Source of the DNA: Antricoccus suffuscus
GTDB taxonomy: Bacteria > Actinomycetota > Actinomycetes > Mycobacteriales > Antricoccaceae
Length of the DNA: 64,000 bases
Direction: 5' to 3'
Assembly: GCF_003003235.1 (NCBI RefSeq)
Contig: NZ_PVUE01000004.1
Coordinates: 62,001 to 126,000, forward strand
The translations under genes were made by a program, and so were the position numbers. How positions within the stretch are numbered: the stretch's first letter is position 1; the number at the start of each line of letters is the position of its first letter. Shown here one piece after another: positions 6,693 through 55,816 of the stretch. The notes under the pieces are model-generated. The model was not told the DNA's origin. It ran no database searches and saw only the letters and a list, made by a program, of their open reading frames with translations.

Positions 6693-8660
6693 GTGGCTGA
6701 AAACCCGGCTGAGAAGCCCGCGAACGATAGCAAGGCCAAGAAGGCATACGGCGCAGACTCGATCACCGTCCTGGAAGGTCTCGAAGCGGTCCGCAAACGG
6801 CCGGGTATGTATATCGGATCGACCGGCGAGCGTGGCCTGCACCACTTGATCTGGGAGGTCGTCGACAACTCGGTCGATGAGGCCCTCGCCGGCTACTGCG
6901 ACCGGGTCGAGGTCACGCTGATGGCCGACGGCGGCGTGCGTTGCAAGGACAATGGTCGCGGCATCCCGGTCAATGTCGGCAAGGGTCAGACGATGCCGGC
7001 CGTCGAGCTGGTGCTCACCGTGTTGCACGCCGGCGGCAAGTTTGACTCCGACTCGTACGCCGTCTCTGGTGGCCTGCACGGTGTCGGCGTTTCGGTGGTC
7101 AATGCGCTATCGACGCGGCTCGATGTCGACATCCACCGCAACGGCTTCCAGTGGACGCAGACCTACGAGCACAGCAAGCCGGCGGCGCCGCTGAAGAAGG
7201 GTCCGGCGGTCAAGGACACCGGCACGACAATCACCTACTGGGCCGACCCGACGATCTTTGACGCGGTCGTCTACAGCCTCGAGACGATCACCCGTCGACT
7301 GCAGGAAATGGCCTTCCTCAACAAGGGCTTGACCATCGTCGTACGCGACGAGCGGCATGAGACGCCCGAAGAGGTCACATTCTGTTACCCCGGCGGGCTC
7401 GAAGACTTCGTCAAGCACATCAACTCGTCCAAAAACCCTATCCACAAGTCCATCATCAGCTTCGGCGCCGAAGAAAAGGGCATCTCCGGCGAGATCGCGA
7501 TGCAGTGGAACGAGTCGTACGGTGAGTCTGTGCGCACCTTCGCCAACACGATCAACACTCATGAGGGTGGCACCCACGAGGAAGGCTTCCGGTCGGCGTT
7601 GACCACCGTGGTCAACCGCTATGCCATCGACAAGCGAGTGCTCAAGGACAAAGACGAACGGCTCTCCGGCGACGACATCCGCGAGGGTCTTGCTGCCGTA
7701 GTGTCGGTCAAGCTGTCCGAACCACAGTTCGAGGGTCAGACGAAGACCAAGCTCGGCAACGCCGAGGCGAAGACTTTCGTGCAGAAACTATGCAACGACT
7801 GGCTGACCGACTGGTTTGAGCGCAACCCCAGCGAAGCAAAGACAATCATCAATAAATCGGCGGATGCGGCGCGTGCTCGCCGTGCCGCCCAGGAGGCCCG
7901 CAAGCTGGCCCGTCGCAAGACCGCGATGAACGGCATCAATATGCCGGGCAAGCTGATGGACTGCCGCTCCAACGACCCGTCGAAGTCGGAGTTGTTCATC
8001 GTGGAGGGCGACTCCGCCGGCGGCTCGGCCCGGTCCGGCCGTGACTCGCTCTACCAGGCGATCCTGCCCATTCGCGGCAAGATCATCAACGTAGAGAAGG
8101 CTCGCCTGGATCGCGCGATGAAAAACAACGAGGTCCAGTCGTTGATTACGGCCATGGGGGCCGGCATTCACGACGACTTTGATATTGAGAAAGCTCGATA
8201 TCACAAGCTGGTGTTGATGGCCGACGCCGACGTCGACGGCCAGCACATCCGCACCCTGCTGCTGACCTTCCTGTTCCGGTTTATGCGCCCGCTGATTGAG
8301 GCCGGCTACGTCTACCTCGCTCAGCCGCCGTTGTTCAAGATCAAGTGGGGCGGCAAGACCGGCGACCAATACGCCTATACCGACCGGGAGCGTGACGGCC
8401 TGCTGCAGGCCGGCATCGACGCCGGCCGGCGCCCGCCCAAGGAAGAGGGCATCCAGCGCTACAAGGGTCTTGGCGAGATGGACGCCAAGGAACTGTGGGA
8501 GACCACCATGGACCCGACCACCCGCATGTTGCTGCAAGTCAGCCTCGATGACGCGGCGACCGCAGATGACCTCTTCAGCGTGCTGATGGGCGATGACGTC
8601 GAGTCCCGGCGCAACTTCATCACCCGCAACGCCCGCGACGTCCGGTTCCTCGACATCTAA
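6693..8660 (+). CDS. gyrB: DNA gyrase subunit B
   Basis: 655 residues from GTG 6693 ([17 protein letters not shown]), chosen because AGGAAGG lies upstream at 6675-6681 while a GTG at 6660 has no ribosome site; the longer form would add 11 residues. It shows the GHKL ATPase ([36 protein letters not shown]), the transducer domain, the TOPRIM motifs EGDSAGGSA and DADVDGQHI, and the GyrB tail [20 protein letters not shown]. With GyrA it forms the A2B2 topoisomerase that introduces negative supercoils. It is followed 43 bp on by gyrA, likely one operon with DUF3566. Confidence 0.97.
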
Positions 8661-8703
8661 CGTCCCTCACACTGCAGCTATGCACTAACGGAGATAAACA
8701 CAA

Positions 8704-11211
8704 GTGACTGTCAAACCACCGGTGGCACCGGACGAGCCCAGCGACGGTTCGCGTATCGAGCTGATCGACATCCAGGCGGAGATGCAGCGCAGCTACATCG
8801 ACTACGCCATGTCTGTCATCGTCGGGCGGGCGCTGCCCGACGTACGCGACGGCCTCAAGCCGGTGCACCGCCGCGTCCTCTACGGCATGTACGACGCCGG
8901 CTTCCGCCCGGATCGCTCGCACGTGAAATGTTCCCGTGTCGTCGGTGAGGTGATGGGTAACTACCACCCACACGGTGACAGCGCGATCTACGACGCGTTG
9001 GTCCGCTTGGCCCAGCCGTGGTCGATGCGTGCACCACTGGTCGACGGTCAAGGCAACTTCGGCTCACCGGGTAACGATCCGGCCGCCGCCATGCGTTACA
9101 CCGAAAGCCGCCTGACGCCGCTCGCGCTGGAGATGCTTGCCGGCATCGACGAGGAGACCGTTGACTTCTCGCCTAACTACGACGGCAAGGTCCAGGAGCC
9201 CGACGTACTTCCGGCTCGGTTCCCCAACCTTCTGGTCAACGGTTCCACAGGGATCGCCGTCGGTATGGCCACCAATATGCCGCCGCAAAACCTGCGCGAG
9301 GTCGCTGACGCGGTGGTGTGGTCGCTGAAGAACCCCACCGCCACTGAGGAGGAACTCCTCGAGTCGGCGATGGGCTTCATCAAGGGTCCGGACTTCCCGA
9401 CCTACGGTCTCATCGCCGGTCGGGCCGGTATTGAGGACGCCTACCGCACCGGTCGCGGCTCGATCCGGATGCGTGCGGTCATCACCGTCGAGGAAGGTGA
9501 GAAGGGTGGGACCATCCTGGTCATCACCGAGCTGCCTTACCAGGTCAACCCGGACAACCTCTGCGAGTCCATCGCGATGCAGGTACGCGACGGAAAGCTT
9601 GCCGGGATCTCCGATATCGCGGACGAAACCTCCGACCGCATCGGCATGCGGATCGTCATCAAGCTCAAGCGTGACGCGGTCGCCAAGGTCGTCATCAACA
9701 ACCTCTTTAAGCACACCCAGCTGCAGACGACGTTCGGCGTCAACATGCTCGCGATCGTCGACGGCGTACCGCGCACGCTGCGCCTCGACCAGCTGATCTC
9801 GTACTACTGCGCGCACCAGATCGACGTTATCCAGCGTCGTACCCGCTATCGGTTGCGCAAGGCCGAAGAACGCGCGCACATCCTGCGTGGGCTGGTCAAG
9901 GCGCTCGACGCCCTCGACGAGGTCATCGCGCTCATCCGGCGCAGCCCCACCGTCGACGAGGCGCGCACGGGCTTGATGGAGTTGCTGGAGATCGACGAGA
10001 TTCAGTCGACTGCCATCCTGGACATGCAGCTGCGCCGGCTTGCCGCCCTCGAACGGCAGAAGATCATCGACGCCCTCGCCGAGATCGAGAAGGAGATCGC
10101 CGAGTTGGAGGCGATCTTGGCTTCTGAGGAGCGGCAGCGTCAGATCGTCGTCGACGAGCTCACCGAGATCGTCGACAAGTACGGCGACGACCGGCGTACC
10201 AAGATCATCGGGTACGACGGCGAGGTGTCGATGGAAGACCTCATCCCCGATGAGGAAGTAGTCGTCACCGTTACCCGCAGTGGCTACGCCAAGCGCACGC
10301 GCAGCGACCTCTATCGCTCGCAGCGTCGCGGTGGCAAGGGGGTCCAGGGAGCGTCGCTGCGCCAGGACGATCTCGTGGACCATTTCTGGATCGGCTCGAC
10401 GCACGAATGGATCCTCTTCTTCACTAACAAGGGGCGCGTCTACCGAGCGAAGACCTACGAGCTGCCGGAGTCGACGCGCAACGCCAAGGGCCAGCACGTC
10501 GCCAACATCCTCGCGTTCCAGCCGGACGAGACGATCGCCCAGGTCATCAAGATCCGCAACTACGACGCGGCGCCCTACCTCGTGCTGGCCACCCGCAACG
10601 GCCTGGTCAAGAAGACCCGCCTCGAGGACTTCGACTCCAACCGCACCGGCGGTGTCATTGCGATCAACCTGCGCGACGGCGATGAGCTCGTCGGCGCAAA
10701 GCTGATTAACGACGATGACAACCTGCTGCTGGTCAGCAAGAAGGCCCAGTCGATCTGCTTCTCGGCTTCCGACGAGTCATTGCGTCCTATGGGCCGGGCT
10801 ACCTCGGGCGTCATCGGTATGCGCTTCGGTGACGACGACGAGTTGCTGGCGATGATTGTCGTCACTGAAGGGGTCGACGTACTCGTCGCGACCGAGCACG
10901 GCTACGCCAAGCGGACCGGTATCGAGCACTATCCACTGCAGGGCCGTGGCGGCAAGGGCGTGCTGACGGCCGACTCCAAGTCGCGCAAGGGCAACCTGGT
11001 CGGGGCGCTCGCGGTCGATCTTGACGATGAGCTGTTCGCGATCACCTCGAGCGGCGGTGTGATCCGGACCCCAGTGAAGGGTGTTCGTCATAACAAAGAC
11101 CGAGCAACCATGGGCGTAAAGTTGATGAATCTGCCAGAAGACGTCACTATTGTTGCGATTGCCCGCAACACCGAAGACGCGGCAGCGTCAACCGAGGAGC
11201 AAGGCACCTGA
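8704..11211 (+). CDS. gyrA: DNA gyrase subunit A
   Basis: 835 residues from GTG 8704. The active-site tyrosine is Y132 in AMRYTESRL. The quinolone-resistance region reads [11 protein letters not shown] (91-101), with Ser at 93 and Asp at 97, the residues usual in quinolone-sensitive enzymes; mycobacteria have Ala at the Ser site. The C-terminal beta-pinwheel contains the GyrA box QRRGGKG, which distinguishes gyrase from topoisomerase IV. The stop overlaps the ATG of the DUF3566 gene (ATGA), indicating translational coupling. Confidence 0.97.
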
Positions 11212-11924
11212 TGAGCAGTAACAAAGCTGGATCCGACGACTGGCTGTCTGCGCCCGTAGGCGCGAAACAGTCAGCGGCGAAATCGCAGGGGTCCAGCGCG
11301 GGGAGCGACGATACAGTCGCAGCCCCGCCTGCCAGCTCGGCGTCGAAGTACAAGTCGTCGTTCACCAACAACATCTCCCAACCGGCGTCCGGTTCGGTCT
11401 ATCCGGCCGGTACCGAACGCAGCGACGGGCAGTCCCCGGCCACGTCCGCGGCGTTGGACCCTGGCCCGGCGACGTCGATCGGGCTCGGCTCGAGCGCGAC
11501 GGGCACGCAGACCGCGACGAGCACGCAGAGCGCGGTGAAGACCAAGTCCGGTCGACGCCCGTCGGCGCGTGGTCCGCGTCGCGCGAAGCTGCAGATCCGT
11601 CACATTGATCCGTGGTCGACATTGAAGTTGTCGCTGGTCCTCGCGATCGCATTCTTCTTCGTATGGATGGTCGCGGTCGGCATCTTGTACGGCGTACTTT
11701 CCGGCATGGGTGTCTTCGACTCGATCGACAGCCTCTTCAGTGAACTCGGCTCGAAGGGCTCTGGGTCGGTCGTCTCTCCCAAGATCATCTTTGGCGGCGC
11801 GGCGTTAATTGGCGCGGTCAACATCGTGCTGTTTACGGCGTTGTCCACGATCGGCGCCTACATCTACAATCTGTGCGCCGATCTCGCCGGCGGCCTGGAG
11901 ATCACCCTGGCTGAACGTCGCTAA
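11211..11924 (+). CDS. DUF3566 membrane protein
   Basis: 237 residues. About 110 residues of Ser/Ala/Thr-rich low-complexity sequence precede a basic stretch ([19 protein letters not shown]) and a conserved region with two membrane segments: [20 protein letters not shown] and a second around [23 protein letters not shown]3566 genes lie directly behind gyrA in most actinobacteria, which matches the one-base-shared ATGA junction here. The protein is predicted to sit in the cytoplasmic membrane; its role is not established. Confidence 0.9.
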
Positions 11925-11958
11925 ACTCAATCGGTGTAAGATTTGCCGGTTGCTGTTT

Positions 11959-11987
11959 CGCGGATCGAACGGTTCAAATGATCCGCG
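11959..11987 (+). terminator. Hairpin between the gyrase operon and tRNA-Ile
   Basis: Arms CGCGGATC (11959-11966) and GATCCGCG (11980-11987) are perfectly complementary, with a second small palindrome (GAAC-G-GTTC) inside. It lies between the DUF3566 stop and the tRNA. It has no T-run, so it could be a weak terminator or a processing signal for the tRNA 5' leader. Confidence 0.5.
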
Positions 11988-12003
11988 TGGCGACCGGCAG
12001 CCC

Positions 12004-12077
12004 GCGCCTGTAGCTCAGTCGGTTAGAGCGCATCCCTGATAAGGATGAGGTCGGAAGTTCGATTCTTCCCAGGCGCA
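12004..12077 (+). tRNA. tRNA-Ile (anticodon GAT)
   Basis: A complete cloverleaf: acceptor GCGCCTG pairs CAGGCGC with discriminator A; anticodon stem CATCC/GGATG with loop CTGATAA (12036-12042), anticodon GAT at 12038-12040; T-arm with GTTCGAT. No CCA is encoded. Its position after gyrA and DUF3566 is the standard actinobacterial one. Confidence 0.97.
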
Positions 12078-12137
12078 CGCGGAATCGGTGCATCTCGCCG
12101 TACGACGACGCCGTTAAGAACGACTGGAGTGGTAGCA

Positions 12138-12269
12138 ATGAAGAAGATTTTGTTCTTAATCGCTGCACTCGGTGGCGTCGTGTATGTCCGCAAGCAGCAG
12201 GCCGCGAAGGCCGAGGCCGACTTGTGGCACGAGGCTACGACGGCACCGGATCTACGGCCGAAGCAGTAA
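12138..12269 (+). CDS. DLW-39 family small protein
   Basis: A 43-residue protein beginning MKKILFLIAALGGVVYVRK, one short membrane-anchoring segment followed by a basic and polar tail that contains the diagnostic DLW motif (AEADLWHEAT). DLW-39 proteins are about 39 residues long and are encoded between the tRNA-Ile and tRNA-Ala genes next to gyrase in many actinobacteria, exactly as here. The ATG at 12138 has GGAGTGG upstream. The function is unknown; it is probably a membrane-associated peptide. Confidence 0.9.
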   Translation: MKKILFLIAALGGVVYVRKQQAAKAEADLWHEATTAPDLRPKQ

Positions 12270-12308
12270 CGCCGCACACCTCGCGGTACGTCGACAACTG
12301 AACAGCAC

Positions 12309-12381
12309 GGGGCCATAGCTCAATTGGTAGAGCGCCTGCTTTGCAAGCAGGAGGTCCGGGGTTCGATTCCCCGTGGCTCCA
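12309..12381 (+). tRNA. tRNA-Ala (anticodon TGC)
   Basis: Acceptor GGGGCCA pairs TGGCTCC and includes the G3-T70 wobble pair that is the identity mark of alanine tRNA. Anticodon stem CCTGC/GCAGG holds loop TTTGCAA (12340-12346), anticodon TGC at 12342-12344. The T-loop is TTCGATT. No CCA is encoded. Confidence 0.97.
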
Positions 12382-12385
12382 CAAA

Positions 12386-29512: not shown

Positions 29513-31123
29513 ATGCCTAGCTCCACGACTGGAACCCGTCCACAGGCGGCCTCCGACGGACTCACGCATCGTCAGATCCTCGAGGTGCTCTTCGGGCTTC
29601 TTGCGGCCTTGTTTACCGCCATCATTAGCTCGACCATCGTCTCGAACGCGCTGCCGACGATCATTGGTGATCTCGACGGAAGCCAGACCGAGTACACCTG
29701 GGTCGTCACGATCTCCCTGCTGACCATGACCGTCTCGACCCCGATCTGGGCGAAGCTGTCGGATCTGGTCAACAAGAAGACGCTCGTACAGATCGCCATT
29801 CTCGTCTTCGTCGCAGGTTCCGTGCTCGCCGGATTCTCCCAAGACGTCGGCCAGTTGCTGGCCTGCCGCGGCCTGCAGGGCCTGGGTATGGGCGGGTTGA
29901 CCGCGTTGGCCCAGTCGATCATCGGCTCGATCATTCCGCCGCGCGACCGCGGCCGCTACAGCGGCTACATGGGCGCAACGATGGCCGTCGCCACCATCAG
30001 TGGACCGTTGCTCGGCGGCGTCATCGTCGACGCGCCGGCACTCGGCTGGCGTTGGACGTTCTTCGTCTGCGTGCCACTTGCACTGATCAGCCTCGGCGTA
30101 CTGCAGCGTTTCCTCAAGATCGAGACCATTAAGCGCGACGTCAAGATCGACTACTGGGGTGCATTGTTCATCGCGATCGCCGCGAGCCTGCCGCTCATGT
30201 GGGTATCGTTCGCCGGATCGAGCTTTGACTGGGTCTCTTGGCCGAGCGCCATGTTTGTCGGCGGCACGATTGTCGCAACGATAATCGCGGTCATGATCGA
30301 GCGTCGTCACTCCGAACCACTAGTTCCGCCGTTCGTCCTGCGCGACCGTACGACGATGCTCGCGATCATCGCGAGCGTCTCGGTCGGCATCGCGATGTTC
30401 GGCAGTTCGGTGTTCATCGGCCAGTACTTCCAGGTCGCGCAGGGCTACACGCCGACCGCGGCCGGTCTGCTGATGATTCCGATGATGCTCGGTTCCCTCG
30501 TAGGATCGGCCGGCTCGGGCGCCCTCATCAGCCGGATCGGCAAATGGAAGCGCTACATCGTCGCCGGCAGCATCATGCTCATCGCGAGCCTCGGCCTGCT
30601 CTCCACGATCAGCCACACCACGCCGGTGTGGCACGTATGCCTCTTCTTGCTGATCCTCGGCCTCGGCATGGGCATGCTGATGCAGAACCTCGTGCTCGCC
30701 GTACAAAACACCGTCGACGTCACCAACGTTGGTGCGGCCAGCGGCGCGGTCGCCTTCTTCCGGTCGCTGGGCGGCGCGATCGGCGTATCGGTCCTCGGCG
30801 CCATCTTGGCCAACCAGGTCGGCAGCAAGATCGCCTCCGGGCTCGGCGCGCTCGGGATTGACATGAGTCAGTCGGGCGGTGCGGGCGTCAGCGTGCTCGA
30901 CCTCAAGCACCTGCCCGCTCCGGTCGTCGAGGTAGTGCGGGCGTCGTACGGCGATGCCACCGGGCGGATCTTCCTCGTTGCCGGGATCGTCGCTTTGGTC
31001 AGCCTCGTCGCGGTCATCATGATCAAGGAAGTCCCGCTGCGGCTCACCGTGCGCAAGTACGACGACGTTGCCGACGACGCTGAGGCGGCCGTACTGGGCG
31101 AGCCGACGCTGTCCAACCACTAA
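29513..31123 (+). CDS. MFS multidrug exporter, 14-TM (EmrB/QacA, DHA2-type), copy 2
   Basis: 536 residues from ATG 29513 (GAAAGG ribosome site). It is near-colinear with copy 1: SSTIVSNALPTIIGDL, AKLSDLVNKKTLVQIA, CRGLQGLGMGGLTALAQSII, and the same FFRSLGGAIGVSVLGAILA late in the protein. The main differences are in the loops, the region before the last helix pair and the C-terminal tail, which ends in an acidic stretch (DDVADDAEAAVLGEP). The likely role is drug or metabolite export. The array of 21-bp repeats begins eight bases after its stop codon. Confidence 0.93.
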   Translation: MPSSTTGTRPQAASDGLTHRQILEVLFGLLAALFTAIISSTIVSNALPTIIGDLDGSQTEYTWVVTISLLTMTVSTPIWAKLSDLVNKKTLVQIAILVFVAGSVLAGFSQDVGQLLACRGLQGLGMGGLTALAQSIIGSIIPPRDRGRYSGYMGATMAVATISGPLLGGVIVDAPALGWRWTFFVCVPLALISLGVLQRFLKIETIKRDVKIDYWGALFIAIAASLPLMWVSFAGSSFDWVSWPSAMFVGGTIVATIIAVMIERRHSEPLVPPFVLRDRTTMLAIIASVSVGIAMFGSSVFIGQYFQVAQGYTPTAAGLLMIPMMLGSLVGSAGSGALISRIGKWKRYIVAGSIMLIASLGLLSTISHTTPVWHVCLFLLILGLGMGMLMQNLVLAVQNTVDVTNVGAASGAVAFFRSLGGAIGVSVLGAILANQVGSKIASGLGALGIDMSQSGGAGVSVLDLKHLPAPVVEVVRASYGDATGRIFLVAGIVALVSLVAVIMIKEVPLRLTVRKYDDVADDAEAAVLGEPTLSNH

Positions 31124-31130
31124 CCCACGA

Positions 31131-31277
31131 TCCGTCACGAATGTCCGGCCGTCCGTCACGAATGTCGGGCCGTCCGTCACGAATGCCGGGCGGTCCGTCA
31201 CGAATGTCCGGCGGTCCGTCACGAATGTCGGGCCGTCCGTCACGAATGTCCGGCGGTCCGTCACGAATGTCGGGCGG
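31131..31277 (+). repeat. Tandem 21-bp repeat array 1 (7 copies)
   Basis: Seven head-to-tail copies of exactly 21 bp, starting at 31131, 31152, 31173, 31194, 31215, 31236 and 31257. Each begins TCCGTCACGAATG, then [T/C]C[C/G]GGC and ends CG or GG. Only the tail varies (C/G choices) plus one T-to-C in copy 3. The same unit makes arrays at 37921 and 55247. It is intergenic, between exporter 2 and the HlyC-type gene. Because 21 is divisible by three, all six frames stay open and give seven-residue peptide repeats; this is not evidence of a protein. The following 31278-31552 holds no gene that I can support. Confidence 0.95.
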
Positions 31278-31555
31278 GCCGACGACGGATTGTCGTGGCG
31301 GGTGGCGCGTCGAAGGTGACGGATCGATCGTTTGTGACGTGATCTTTATGCTGGCCCTCCCCAACGCCGTGCTGGAACGGTTTAATGGGTCTCAACGTTT
31401 CCACAGGGAGCGGTTACGCAGTTCTCATGCTGCGATACCAGTATTTGCCACCGACCGTGGCCAACCAGGATGGAGATCATGCCCAGCGGTTCCGACCCAG
31501 GCGGCGATAGTTGTAGACCTAGAGCGGGTCGTCGGCGTACCGAAACCGTGCAGTG

Positions 31556-35995: not shown

Positions 35996-36035
35996 GTCCG
36001 GCAAAGTGGTCGCGATAACGACCACTTTGCCGGAC
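35996..36035. repeat. Dispersed palindromic repeat, family A, copy 1
   Basis: Perfect 17-bp arms: GTCCGGCAAAGTGGTCG (35996-36012), a six-base loop, and its complement 36019-36035. CTAAC stands on both outer sides as a direct repeat (35991-35995 and 36036-36040). An almost identical element lies at 44011-44060. Here it separates the ABC permease from the kinase gene within one transcriptional direction and could attenuate read-through. Confidence 0.9.
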
Positions 36036-36053: not shown

Positions 36054-36869
36054 TTAGCTGCGAGGCTCCCAGCGAAACCGTGCACTGCACGTCACTACCC
36101 CGATGATGGTCCACGCCACCAGTACGGCGACCGGCACCAGAGCCTGAGTCATGCCCGCACCCACACCGATCACGTTGCCGGAGCGGTCCACGCCGGCTAC
36201 GCCGAGATTGAACAGCTCGACGACCGCGCTTGCCGGTAGGAGGCGAGCGATCTCTGCCAGTACGTCGGGCAGCACGCTGAGCGGGAAGAACATCCCGGAC
36301 AGCGCCATGCTGATCATGATCATCGGCATCGTGGTGATCTGCGCGGTCTCGGCGGTCTTGGTGAACGTCGTACTGGCCGCGGCGAGTACGACGAACGCGA
36401 CCGTGCCGAGCAGAAGTCCGATCAGCGGCAGCAGCGGGTTCGACATCGATAGGTCCTGGCCGATAGCCAGCAAGGCCGCCGTCCCCACGAGCACCTGGAC
36501 CAGCGTGACCACGATGCTGGGTGCCGCTACGGCGGTCAGGATGCCGACGTCACCGACCTGGCCGGTCCGCAACCGTTTCAACACGAGGTCCTCGCGGCGG
36601 GCGACGTACGTCGTCACGAGGTTGTAGTAGGTGACGAAACACAGCGCCATCACCGCCAACGCCGACACCGCAGCCGTGGCGGTGCTCGTCGCGGACTTGA
36701 ACGCGCCGACGGCAAACAGCGCGCCGACCATAAGCAATGGCAGGGCGATCGAGTTGGCGACCGCGGTTCGATTACGCATCAGCAGCAGGGTTTCGGCCTT
36801 GGCCAGCGCCATCGTGCGGGTCAGCGAGCTTCGGTCTTGCTGCCGTCGGGTCGTCGTCATGGTGGTCAC
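36054..36869 (-). CDS. ABC-2 type exporter permease
   Basis: 271 residues from GTG 36869, whose GTGA overlaps the ATPase stop and which has GGAAGGAG seven bases upstream. The protein has six membrane segments, including TAVANSIALPLLMVGALFAV and the ABC-2 signature zone MIMISMALSGMFFPLSVLPD. With the upstream ATPase it forms a drug-, lipid- or antibiotic-type exporter of the daunorubicin-resistance class. The gene pair followed by a DesK/DesR system is a usual arrangement in Gram-positive bacteria for stress-induced export. Confidence 0.9.
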   Translation of the reverse strand: MTTMTTTRRQQDRSSLTRTMALAKAETLLLMRNRTAVANSIALPLLMVGALFAVGAFKSATSTATAAVSALAVMALCFVTYYNLVTTYVARREDLVLKRLRTGQVGDVGILTAVAAPSIVVTLVQVLVGTAALLAIGQDLSMSNPLLPLIGLLLGTVAFVVLAAASTTFTKTAETAQITTMPMIMISMALSGMFFPLSVLPDVLAEIARLLPASAVVELFNLGVAGVDRSGNVIGVGAGMTQALVPVAVLVAWTIIGVVTCSARFRWEPRS

Positions 36870-37819
36870 GCTGCGACTCCTTCCGGGAGGGTTTGCGAGG
36901 CAGCGGGGCCGGTGGATCCGGCGATCGCGAGGAACGCCTCCTCCAACGACGCAGACCGCGCCTGCAGATCGGTGAGAGTGAGGGACCGTTCTTCGGCCCA
37001 CTTCATGAGAATCGTGAGGTCACGCTGCAGTGTGCCGGTGCGCAGGGTCAGTCGGGAGCCATCGACGGTGCGCTCCCCGTTTACGGCGGGCAGGTCGGTC
37101 GAGCGCAGACCCTGCGGCAACTCGAACGCGATGGTCGAGGGGTACGCCGCGGCGATCTGTTCCGGCGTACCGGCCGCGACGATCCGACCTTCGTGCATGA
37201 TCGCGAGGTGGTCGGCCAGGCTCTGCGCCTCCTCGAGGTAGTGCGTGGTCAGCACGATGGCGCAGCCCTCTTTGACGAGGTTGTCGATCAGCGCCCACGT
37301 CGCGTGGCGACTCTGCGGGTCTAACCCCGTGGTCGGCTCGTCTAGGAAGAGCACCTTCGGCCACCCGGTGAGCGAGAGCGCGAGATCGAGCCGGCGACGT
37401 TCACCGCCGGACAGCGCCTTGACGGCCACGGAGGCGCGATGCGCCAGCCCGACCATCTCGAGCGCCTCCTGCGGCGGCCGGGCCCGGACCAGGCTGTCGG
37501 CCCACATGCGAGCGGTCTCCAGCGCGGTCAGGTCGCCCGGAAGTCCGCCTGATTGCAGCATGATGCCGATATCGGGCCGTACGGCGGAGCGGTCGGCGTA
37601 CGGGTCCTTGCCGAGTACCCGCACGGTGCCGCCGGTCGGGCGTGACAGTCCCTCGACGACCTCGAGAGTCGAGGTTTTGCCCGCGCCGTTCGTGCCCAGC
37701 AGCGCGAACAACTCGCCGCGGCGTACCTCGAACGACACGCCTCGGACGGCCTCATAACCGCCGTCGCCGCCGTAGCTTCGACGCAGTTCGTTGACTTCGA
37801 CGCTTGGTGTTGTTGTCAT
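36866..37819 (-). CDS. ABC exporter ATPase (DrrA-like)
   Basis: 317 residues. Walker A is GTNGAGKTS (42-50), the signature LSGGERRRLDLALSL, Walker B VLFLDEPTTGLDP and the switch histidine in VLTTHYLEEA. The extra C-terminal 90 residues are typical of drug-export ATPases in this family. It is the first gene of the ATPase-permease-kinase-regulator unit. No clear Shine-Dalgarno sequence is present, so the message may have a very short leader. Its 5' side faces 21-bp array 2 (37921-38030) and the ribokinase gene. Confidence 0.93.
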   Translation of the reverse strand: MTTTPSVEVNELRRSYGGDGGYEAVRGVSFEVRRGELFALLGTNGAGKTSTLEVVEGLSRPTGGTVRVLGKDPYADRSAVRPDIGIMLQSGGLPGDLTALETARMWADSLVRARPPQEALEMVGLAHRASVAVKALSGGERRRLDLALSLTGWPKVLFLDEPTTGLDPQSRHATWALIDNLVKEGCAIVLTTHYLEEAQSLADHLAIMHEGRIVAAGTPEQIAAAYPSTIAFELPQGLRSTDLPAVNGERTVDGSRLTLRTGTLQRDLTILMKWAEERSLTLTDLQARSASLEEAFLAIAGSTGPAASQTLPEGVAA

Positions 37820-37920
37820 GACTCAAGCCTGCTGGGCGCGGGCCGTTGCAGGTAGTGCGGTCCGTCAGGGATTTCCGGTACGCCGACACGGGTCGCTAGT
37901 GACATTTGTCAGCCCGCCCG

Positions 37921-38030
37921 TCCGCTACGAATGTCCGCCCGTCCGTCACGAATGTCCGCCCGTCCGTCACGAATGTCCGCCCGTCCGTCACGAATGTCCG
38001 CCCGTCCGTCACGAATGTCCGCCCGTCCGT
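37921..38030. repeat. Tandem 21-bp repeat array 2 (5 copies plus partial)
   Basis: Copies start at 37921, 37942, 37963, 37984 and 38005; a sixth breaks off after TCCGT at 38030. Copies 2-5 are identical (TCCGTCACGAATGTC, then CGCCCG); copy 1 has a GC-TA shuffle (TCCGCTACG). Degenerate relatives precede the array (around 37859 and 37893). The array lies in the 290-bp space between two divergent genes, the ABC ATPase (minus) and ribokinase (plus), so it is within or next to both promoters. The frame through it joins the ribokinase frame but the kinase begins at 38110. Confidence 0.93.
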
Positions 38031-44010: not shown

Positions 44011-44060
44011 CTAACGTCCGGCAAAGCGGTCGCCAGGACGACCACTTTGCCGGACGTTAG
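44011..44060. repeat. Dispersed palindromic repeat, family A, copy 2
   Basis: Arms of 22 bp (44011-44032 and 44039-44060) with one mismatch; the inner 17 bases match copy 1 at 35996-36035 except for one base. Here the outer CTAAC/GTTAG is part of the palindrome. It lies between convergent genes and would be able to terminate both. Confidence 0.9.
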
Positions 44061-54218: not shown

Positions 54219-55189
54219 ATTTCGATTTAGACGAAGGTCAGCGGGAGTTCGCCGGCATGGCCGAGAAGTTCTTTAGTAAGAACGCTTCGCCTGCACACGC
54301 GCGTGATCAGCTCGATAGCGGCGCCGCTCCGGCGCCGGGTCTCAAGGCGATTGCCGAGCTCGGTTTCCTCGGCATCACCGTGCCGGAGTCGGAGGGCGGC
54401 ATCGGTCAGTCCATGCTCGACCTCGCGGTTGTCGCCGAGCAGGCTGGGCGGGCGCTCGCCTCGCCGTCGATGATCACCTCGGCGCGCGCCGCCGTACTCC
54501 TCGCCGGACACAGCGAACACCTCGCCGCACTTGCCGATGGCAGTGTCGCGTACGCCGTCGTCGACGGCAACGGGCCCGCGATTGACGCGGCGACCGCGAC
54601 GAAGTTCCTGGCGCTGGACGGCAAGTCGCTCGTGCTCGCCTCGGGAACGGTTGCTTCTGGTGAGCCGATCGATCCGACCCGCGGTCTGGCTACGGTCACG
54701 CTGACGGACAAAGAGGTCCTCGTCGAGGATGCGACCGAGCTGTGGGCGCGGGCCCGCCTCGCCGGCTTCATCGCGATCGCGGCCGAGGACCTCGGCACCG
54801 CGCAGAAGGCGCTCGATGTGGGCGTCGAATACGGCAATATGCGTGAGGCGTTCGGCCGCAAGATCGGGTCGTACCAGGCCATCAAGCATGCACTCGTCGA
54901 CGTGTACGTCGATGTCGAGCAGCTCCGGTCGCTCGTGTGGTGGGCAGCCTGGGCATTCGACCACTCGCCCGACGAGGCTCCGCTGGCCGCGCATGCGGCG
55001 AAGGCGCGTGCCGCGGAGATCCTCGAACATGCCTCCGAGACGCTGATCCAGGTGCACGGTGGTATCGGCTTCACGTGGGAGCACGACGCGCACCTCTACT
55101 GGCGTCGCGCGAAGGTCGACCGGCTGTTGCTGGGCGACGCGAACAGTCATTTCACCGCTGTCGCGGAGCTCTCGCTCGCAACCGCTTAA
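54215..55189 (+). CDS. Acyl-CoA dehydrogenase (FadE-type, second subunit)
   Basis: 324 residues from ATG 54215, which overlaps the preceding stop; the open frame extends further upstream but has no support. It begins MNFDLDEGQREFAGMAEKFF, and the N-terminal helical domain GFLGITVPESEGGIG is clear. The FAD-binding middle is shortened relative to the first subunit and lacks the SEPASGSD-like loop. The end is LIQVHGGIGFTWEHDAHLYW. This shorter, degenerate partner fits the heteromeric FadE pattern. Last gene of the operon, before a terminator. Confidence 0.93.
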   Translation: MNFDLDEGQREFAGMAEKFFSKNASPAHARDQLDSGAAPAPGLKAIAELGFLGITVPESEGGIGQSMLDLAVVAEQAGRALASPSMITSARAAVLLAGHSEHLAALADGSVAYAVVDGNGPAIDAATATKFLALDGKSLVLASGTVASGEPIDPTRGLATVTLTDKEVLVEDATELWARARLAGFIAIAAEDLGTAQKALDVGVEYGNMREAFGRKIGSYQAIKHALVDVYVDVEQLRSLVWWAAWAFDHSPDEAPLAAHAAKARAAEILEHASETLIQVHGGIGFTWEHDAHLYWRRAKVDRLLLGDANSHFTAVAELSLATA

Positions 55190-55204
55190 CTCACGACGTA
55201 CGAA

Positions 55205-55237
55205 GTCGCCGTCCGGGATTTCCGGGCGGCGACTTTT
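55205..55237 (+). terminator. Rho-independent terminator of the beta-oxidation operon
   Basis: GTCGCCGTCCGG (55205-55216) pairs CCGGGCGGCGAC (55222-55233) with one mismatch, five-base loop, followed by TTTT. Confidence 0.9.
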
Positions 55238-55246
55238 GTCTGCCCG

Positions 55247-55373
55247 TCCGTCGCGTATGTCCGCCGATCCGTCACGTATGTTCCGCCGATCCGTCACGTA
55301 TGTCCGCCGATCCGTCACGTATGTCCGCCGATCCGTCACGTATGTCTGCCCGTCCGCCACGAACATCCCCCGA
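55247..55373. repeat. Tandem 21-bp repeat array 3 (5 copies plus one degenerate)
   Basis: Copies start at 55247, 55268, 55290, 55311, 55332 and 55353; copy 2 has one extra T (22 bp), copy 6 is degenerate. The unit is TCCGTCACGTATGTC plus CGCCGA. Compared with arrays 1 and 2, the A of CGAATG is T in copies 1-5 (CGTATG), so this array has been homogenised on its own. It lies between the terminator above and family B copy 3, in a convergent gap. Confidence 0.94.
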
Positions 55374-55379
55374 CGAGCC

Positions 55380-55442
55380 GTACATATGTGCTATTTGGCA
55401 GCGAGACCCCGCCACCGGCGCTGCAGAACGCCACATTTGTGA
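55380..55442. repeat. Dispersed hairpin element, family B, copy 3
   Basis: Left arm 55381-55403 (TACATATGTGCTATTTGGCA then GCG) and right arm 55419-55442 (CGCTGCAGAACGCCACATTT then GTGA). It is the most diverged of the three copies but keeps the same design. It follows array 3 by seven bases. The remaining 55443-55543 has no gene. Confidence 0.7.
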
Positions 55443-55543
55443 GCTACTGCCAGATTCACGGCCGGTAGTTATCCACAGGTGTGGACAACGCGGTGGATAA
55501 CTACATGGATGTAACTATGGCGTGACCTGCGGAAATTGCGCCG

Positions 55544-55816
55544 CTAGCGCCACTTCATCGACATGACGAGCCCGACAATGATCGGCGCAAAGCCGACGAC
55601 GTAGTTCCAAGCACCCAGGGAGATCATGAAGGGGATCTTGTCGCCACGGACGTAGAAGACGACGATGTACGCAAGGCCCGCCACCATCAGCAGAACCATC
55701 ACCGGCGCCCACCACGGCGGGCTCGGCTCCTTCGCCGCCGCCCGCGTGCGGGCGCTTGGAAGTGTGTCGGCTGGCGGCGTGTATGCCGCCTTCTTGCGGA
55801 CCTTGGACTTTGGCAC
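55544..55816 (-). CDS. crgA: Cell division protein CrgA
   Basis: 90 residues from GTG 55816 (MPKSKVRKKAAYTPP), with AGGAG upstream; longer readings overlap the divergent gene. Two membrane segments: WWAPVMVLLMVAGLAYIVVFY and LGAWNYVVGFAPIIVGLVMSM, ending MKWR as in the family. CrgA recruits peptidoglycan synthases to the actinobacterial septum and affects FtsZ-ring timing. It sits beside DUF881, sortase and trpG as in Streptomyces and mycobacteria. Confidence 0.95.
   Translation of the reverse strand: MPKSKVRKKAAYTPPADTLPSARTRAAAKEPSPPWWAPVMVLLMVAGLAYIVVFYVRGDKIPFMISLGAWNYVVGFAPIIVGLVMSMKWR

Follow-up and report, generated by a model that had tools for sequence, protein, structure and literature searches.

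The window, the whole 64-kb stretch of DNA analysed here (C4:62001-126000), carries three tandem arrays of one short repeat unit and, ahead of the third, a hairpin.

31131-31277, + strand: array 1, seven 21-bp units with alternating G/C-rich tails
37914-38030, + strand: array 2, five units plus partial edges, the units running from 37921
55206-55232, + strand: hairpin (stem of 11 bp, loop of 5 nt) with TTTTGTCT behind it, lying past the stop codon at 55189 and ahead of array 3
55247-55367, + strand: array 3, six units, one step being 22 bp

An earlier note on this DNA had described three arrays of a single 21-bp unit, with copy numbers of 7, 5 and about 6, and this is borne out. TRF calls all three arrays with period 21, at 31131-31281 (7.2 copies), 37914-38030 (5.6) and 55247-55361 (5.4). 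The TCCGTCACGWATGTC core, with up to three mismatches allowed, matches at 22 places in the window against 4.86 expected, a number that none of 100 shuffles reached, and 18 of these 22 matches are array units (7, 5 and 6 in the arrays starting at 31131, 37921 and 55247). The 21-bp period holds in all three arrays except for the one longer step in array 3. The bases between the repeats are variants of the family and not unique sequences. The arrays thus lack unique spacers, in agreement with the note, and on this ground a CRISPR array is rejected.

By our own gene calls all three arrays of the window are intergenic. Array 1 has its first unit 7 nt past the TAA of an MFS transporter gene (+ strand, 29585-31123). 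Array 2 is flanked by a divergent pair, an ABC transporter ATPase gene (- strand, 36866-37819) and a PfkB-family kinase gene (+ strand, from 38110), and array 3 by convergent genes, an acyl-CoA dehydrogenase gene (+ strand, ending at 55189) and crgA (- strand, 55544-55816). The fold at 55206-55232 looks like an intrinsic terminator, and a consensus terminator scan of 55100-55600 found none and did not list this hairpin. The RNA of array 1 is strongly folded (-70.8 kcal/mol) and has no C bias (C 0.35, G 0.33), unlike the family average. With array 1 strongly folded, array 2 between divergent genes and array 3 past a hairpin, the relation of the arrays to gene ends is visible only genome-wide. 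Elsewhere in the window, at 6693-12382, gyrB and gyrA (Pfam) are followed by tRNA-Ile and tRNA-Ala, an arrangement which we take to suggest a replication origin nearby.

A dispersed repeat family

The genome searched is a draft of 4,683,100 bases in 43 contigs and looks actinobacterial, the 80 best relatives of its nadC being mostly Actinomycetota by their titles. A search of it with the core, as the note had proposed, confirmed that the arrays are not restricted to the window: the TCCGTCACGWATGTC core occurs at 142 places with at most one mismatch (reversed control 0) and the motif pair TCCGTCAC-N(12-15)-TCCGTCAC at 180 places (controls 0). Two subfamilies can be distinguished, one of 21 bp (TCCGTCACGAATGTC plus six bases) and one of 22 bp (TCCGTCACAAAATCC plus seven), which have TCCGTCAC in common and differ in their spacers.

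A broad finder, in which TCCGTC[AG]C was chained at 20-23 bp, returned 72 arrays in 1,107,140 bases of sequence made up of stretches around matches (GC 0.65). The reversed motif returned none, and of eight permuted motifs seven returned none and one returned two. The final set, after merging, trimming and one addition by hand (the array at L172), comprises 72 loci. A false first unit was cut from the arrays at L050 and L055, and a second chain at L039 was left out because it represents the same locus. The stretches examined include 167 of the 180 motif pairs and 140 of the 142 cores; about 13 pairs lie outside, among them C3:181941 and C5:24228. No family array was present in eighteen more stretches of 20 kb, taken at round coordinates. 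In the examined stretches TRF also reported 27 intergenic rows that lack the motif (23 after merging), among which no second dispersed family was seen by eye, and 13 coding rows with motif letters, five of which represent four loci already in the set while eight are unrelated. Contigs C7, C11, C19, C21 and C36 have arrays or single units within about 2 kb of an end, which suggests that the assembly may break at the repeats and that the draft may lack some copies.

Unit anatomy and array edges

With a finder using all 15 core positions, seven of the eight positions of TCCGTCAC are conserved at 0.96-1.00 and the seventh is A (0.87) or G (0.12), core positions 10 and 12 stand at 0.78 and 0.77, and the last six positions at 0.50-0.80. 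TCCGTCAC is also present in the 22-bp form, where its invariance is partly built in because that finder itself searches for it. The earlier note had argued from the 21-bp length that every copy faces the same side of the helix. This holds for the 21-bp subfamily, which stays in phase, but the argument is weakened by the 22-bp sister subfamily, which has the same TCCGTCAC and goes out of phase by about 1 bp with each copy.

The arrays have preferred edges. CGA forms the three bases preceding the first unit in 46 of 72 loci, and a C-rich tail is discernible over about seven bases ahead of that unit. In 28 of 72 loci the last unit breaks off when 8 or 9 of its bases have matched, and in 11 of 72 the match continues for at least 16; a random break point would be expected to yield far more long runs. 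These edges are best captured by the notation R(SR)n, in which R includes CGA-TCCGTCAC and S stands for an A/T-rich spacer of 6-7 nt, with a number of R copies that differs between loci from 2 to 7. Copies within arrays are nearly identical, which the note had read as a sign of recent amplification or gene conversion. Recent amplification finds support in L035, L026, L031 and L039, where two units alternate as tandem duplication gives. No target-site duplication was found at the array edges (mean score 0.486 observed, 0.637 shuffled).

Position and orientation relative to genes

Gene positions were taken from our own simple codon-usage caller rather than from a curated annotation, and 63 loci with called genes on both sides were analysed for position, the other nine (five in genes, four at contig edges) being left out. 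In 34 of the 63 the stop codon of a gene in the same direction precedes the start of the array by at most 15 nt. Placing every array at a uniformly random position in its own intergenic gap, with random orientation, gives an expectation of 10.6. None of 100000 simulations reached 34, the maximum being 22. The 34 include L021 (- strand, TAA 12 nt before the array), a gene end that the caller missed and that was added by hand. In the set before trimming, a sense stop lies within 30 nt upstream in 17 of 24 arrays of the 22-bp subfamily (mostly at 5-12 nt) and in 22 of 47 of the 21-bp subfamily, and the stop of an opposite gene lies at the other edge in 4 and 8 arrays, respectively, six such stops falling inside the last R.

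The 63 loci comprise 30 between convergent genes, 17 between genes in the same direction, 10 antisense to both neighbours and 6 between divergent genes. TAA is over-represented at array-bearing stops (17/33 vs 197/796, P 0.0017). Arrays avoid the interiors of operons: only 2 of 33 array-bearing gene ends would be operon-internal, defined by a gap under 45 nt once the array is taken out, compared with 362 of 1158 others (Fisher P 0.0009), and the avoidance is weak within same-strand gaps alone (P 0.045). Replication-strand polarity, judged by the GC skew of the stretch, has no clear link with array strand (27 positive and 14 negative for + arrays, 23 and 7 for - arrays).

Several loci have further peculiarities. 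At the convergent loci L015, L022, L028, L056 and L062 the opposite gene stops at a TGA from the last TCCGTCA read in reverse, so that the array supplies that gene's stop codon. Two arrays on opposite strands face each other at L054 and L037, with about 0.1-0.2 kb between them and each lying behind its own gene, and also at L065 and L021, with about 1 kb between them. The 22-bp array at L017 starts 29 nt behind a tRNA-Arg gene and not behind a protein gene. At L055 and L037 one array lies directly behind smc and another overlaps the start of scpA (Pfam); these are two cases and may be chance.

Hairpins and the composition of array RNA

When convergent regions are counted once, a hairpin of -20 kcal/mol or below is present in 2 of 25 regions with an array and in 24 of 73 without (P 0.017), and at -22 kcal/mol or below the counts are 1 of 25 and 22 of 73 (P 0.006). 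Over all contexts, hairpins of -20 or below occur at 4 of 41 array ends and 93 of 376 array-less ends (P 0.03). Four thresholds were looked at, and at -18 there is no difference over all contexts (12/41 vs 132/376); nor does the whole distribution differ (P 0.35). The scarcity is thus restricted to the strongest hairpins. At array-less ends with a hairpin of -22 kcal/mol or below (n=73), the hairpin starts at a median of 22 nt behind the stop.

Array RNA in the sense orientation is rich in C and poor in G (C 0.39 and G 0.24 in the 21-bp subfamily, C 0.42 and G 0.18 in the 22-bp subfamily). The median YC count in the best 78 nt is 22 in 47 arrays of the 21-bp and 23 in 24 arrays of the 22-bp subfamily, whereas array-less ends (n=376) have a median of 12, coding stretches (n=300) one of 13 and the antisense strand one of 7. 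C residues spaced in a rut-like manner are found in 0.72 (21-bp) and 0.96 (22-bp) of arrays, against 0.46 of array-less ends, 0.56 of coding stretches and 0.10 of antisense strands. The minimum free energy per nt is -0.24 for 44 arrays of the 21-bp and -0.14 for 20 of the 22-bp subfamily, compared with -0.37 at 60 array-less gene ends. Array RNA therefore has the traits of a rut site, being C-rich, G-poor and YC-rich with little structure, and window array 1 is the exception.

The genome encodes Rho (C2:72690-74612; TIGR00767, 649.9 bits, above the cut-off). In passages of one report, Rho is described as preferring C-rich, unstructured RNA and actinobacteria as having fewer intrinsic terminators (PMC4167861). 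Arrays behind sense stops are no more C-rich than the others (21-bp P 0.42, 22-bp P 0.28), which gives no sign of selection for rut quality. Since all arrays are of one origin, their C-richness counts as one or two observations rather than 70, and is not independent evidence.

A second dispersed repeat, with the palindromic form CCGGCAAAGTGGTC-N8-GACCACTTTGCCGG, lies at array-less gene ends in the window (35998-36033 and 44018-44053), and similar copies are present in other stretches. It forms very stable hairpins and looks like a REP-like or bidirectional terminator family.

Arrays inside genes

The claim that the arrays lie outside genes holds in the window and for most of the family, and fails at 5 of the 72 loci, where the array overlaps a called gene. 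A LytR_cpsA_psr protein has one array in frame within its N-terminal part, and another lies in a loop of a CitMHS/ArsB-type transporter, the loop being shorter in two distant relatives (33 and 36% identity). The others are at the C-terminus of NadC, where the Pfam domain extends to residue 264 and the array runs from codon 271, at the C-terminus of a DUF998 protein, and at the N-terminus of ScpA, whose domain starts from residue 73 and whose start codon could have been assigned wrongly. In the window arrays, all the copies shown are open in two of the three forward frames. The distance from the upstream stop to the array varies modulo 3 from one locus to the next, which makes read-through unlikely as the general role, and translation was rejected as such; a few arrays are in frame within genes.

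Distribution and mobile elements

The motif pair is absent from four members of the same taxonomic family. Three one-mismatch core matches occur in two of these four genomes, none of them with tandem units around it. Among 394 genomes of the class, 180 pairs are in the genome studied here, and 21 of the 393 others have 1-4 pairs, all with other spacers. Two exact 21-bp units had no match in GTDB r220 contigs, a collection from which records near this genome may be absent, and the patterns and stretch used had no match in phages, plasmids and viral contigs, where near records may likewise be absent.

The Y1 (REP-type) transposase PF01797 has no match in the genome, compared with matches in 5 of 14 control genomes. 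The unit is also non-palindromic by inspection, and a REP element was rejected. The sole reverse transcriptase found (PF00078; L171:8713-10023, - strand, at about 118.7-120.0 kb of C3) is retron-like, its best PADLOC models being RT_other and RT_outgroup (retron), and the 17.8-kb stretch around it contains no array.

A possible gene-end element

We tentatively read the family as a dispersed tandem repeat, specific to one lineage, that works at gene ends in a strand-specific way, most likely as a loading site for Rho. Judged from sequence, the arrays may be portable ends for gene transcripts. One R(SR)n element would have been copied to more than 70 places, the arrays differing by whole repeats, and selection for termination would have kept it preferentially as the 3' end of transcription units, in the sense orientation and directly behind the stop codon. 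The transcript of an array would be ribosome-free, mostly weakly folded, C-rich and YC-rich RNA, which would load Rho and so end transcription in place of a hairpin terminator. Against the Rho-loading reading, TCCGTCAC is conserved more strictly than Rho needs, ten loci are antisense to both neighbours, six are divergent and five overlap genes, and of the window arrays the first folds strongly and the third follows a terminator-like hairpin.

The main rival, which comes close behind and is a serious possibility, is a dispersed satellite without function in the cell. A strand-aware copying process would insert R(SR)n at transcribed gene ends, or the element would survive there as little harmful, and arrays would then grow and shrink by slippage or unequal exchange. 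The confinement to one lineage is what a satellite would show (the motif pair in none of four family members, and the 1-4 pairs of 21 of 393 class genomes having other spacers), as are the preferred edges, the two-unit alternation inside arrays, and the arrays within the LytR-type protein (in frame) and in the transporter loop that is shorter in two relatives. Looking 150 nt downstream of each of 296 array-less gene ends yields a single TCCGTCAC, which also fits a satellite, since there is then no common pre-existing seed from which arrays could have grown. An inert DNA array does not readily account for the strand bias and the anchoring behind stops, however: inert insertions should favour neither the sense orientation nor positions 5-12 nt behind stops unless insertion is itself strand-aware. 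Neither a target-site duplication nor a Y1 transposase was found.

It is unlikely that the arrays act as double-stranded DNA bound by a putative sequence-specific protein, in the iteron-like manner that the earlier note had in mind, whether as a polar roadblock to RNA polymerase or as nucleoid anchors. Such binding would account for the stronger conservation of TCCGTCAC than of the rest of the unit, for its presence in both subfamilies despite their different spacers, and for the polarity of arrays relative to genes, but the 22-bp subfamily breaks the helical phasing and single sites are nearly absent behind array-less genes (1 in 296 ends). More than 70 dispersed loci do not resemble one origin of replication with its iterons, but most of the neighbouring genes are without annotation and a linked gene may lie among them. 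Slightly less probable still is an element of the 3'-UTR that is not a terminator, with repeated sites at which a putative RNA-binding protein or a base-pairing RNA would set mRNA stability. The sense orientation directly behind stops, the conservation of TCCGTCAC in the RNA strand and the low average secondary structure are compatible with it, whereas the avoidance of operon interiors together with the few strong hairpins at convergent ends points to the ending of transcripts rather than to their stability.

The Rho-loading reading has a more far-reaching form, in which a mobile minisatellite serves as a portable strand-specific Rho terminator, has spread in one lineage, has replaced hairpin terminators at convergent ends and is occasionally used as an in-frame protein linker. 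We regard this as doubtful. Dispersed tandem repeats of bacteria are often treated as neutral typing markers. A family with preferred edges, anchored behind stop codons and present where strong hairpin terminators are lacking, would illustrate how transcript ends across a genome can be rewired through the spread of a single repeat. With over 70 loci, the family also provides natural sites at which Rho loading could be tested in a high-GC bacterium. The same DNA seems able to act both as an untranslated gene end and as an in-frame segment of a protein.

Comparison with known repeats

Among the matches listed in the open-access literature there is no description of this repeat family, and we found no report in the literature searched that combines Rho-dependent termination or rut sites with tandem repeats. 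Ordinary rut sites are not known to have a sequence in common between loci. The MIRU elements of mycobacteria are, like the arrays, actinobacterial, dispersed, sometimes tandem and located beside stop codons. They are longer and lie inside operons with overlapping stop and start codons. The arrays avoid operon interiors and differ in this from MIRUs.

Rho prefers unstructured, C-rich RNA (PMC4167861). The arrays resemble rut sites as C-rich, YC-rich and mostly weakly folded sense RNA, often right after the coding region, at what may be the ends of transcription units. REP and BIME elements, as portions of PMC3733652 and PMC2817692 present them, are likewise short extragenic repeats found dispersed in genomes, for which roles in termination have been proposed, but they are palindromic and linked to REP-associated tyrosine transposases. 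The combination of one sequence family, R(SR)n edges and anchoring at stops does not appear in the portions seen of these two reports or of PMC9879509 and PMC4679880.

The tandem repeats of Borgs, in the sections of PMC9879509 that describe them, are similar in having head-to-tail units of about 20 nt that end in partial repeats on the outside and occur between genes as well as in frame within ORFs. They differ in having independent origins and different sequences, and in being A-rich and perfect, whereas the arrays form one sequence family over a bacterial chromosome, with a C-rich sense strand, and are often anchored behind stops. The TAACTGA repeats of Beggiatoaceae, from extracts of PMC4679880, share with the arrays one short unit, many intergenic sets of direct repeats and a strand preference relative to genes. 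Those repeats are heptamers that mostly face start codons in a Beggiatoaceae genome and are also found in Cyanobacteria and Bacteroidetes, whereas the arrays described here are made of 21- and 22-mers, lie behind stop codons and belong to one lineage.
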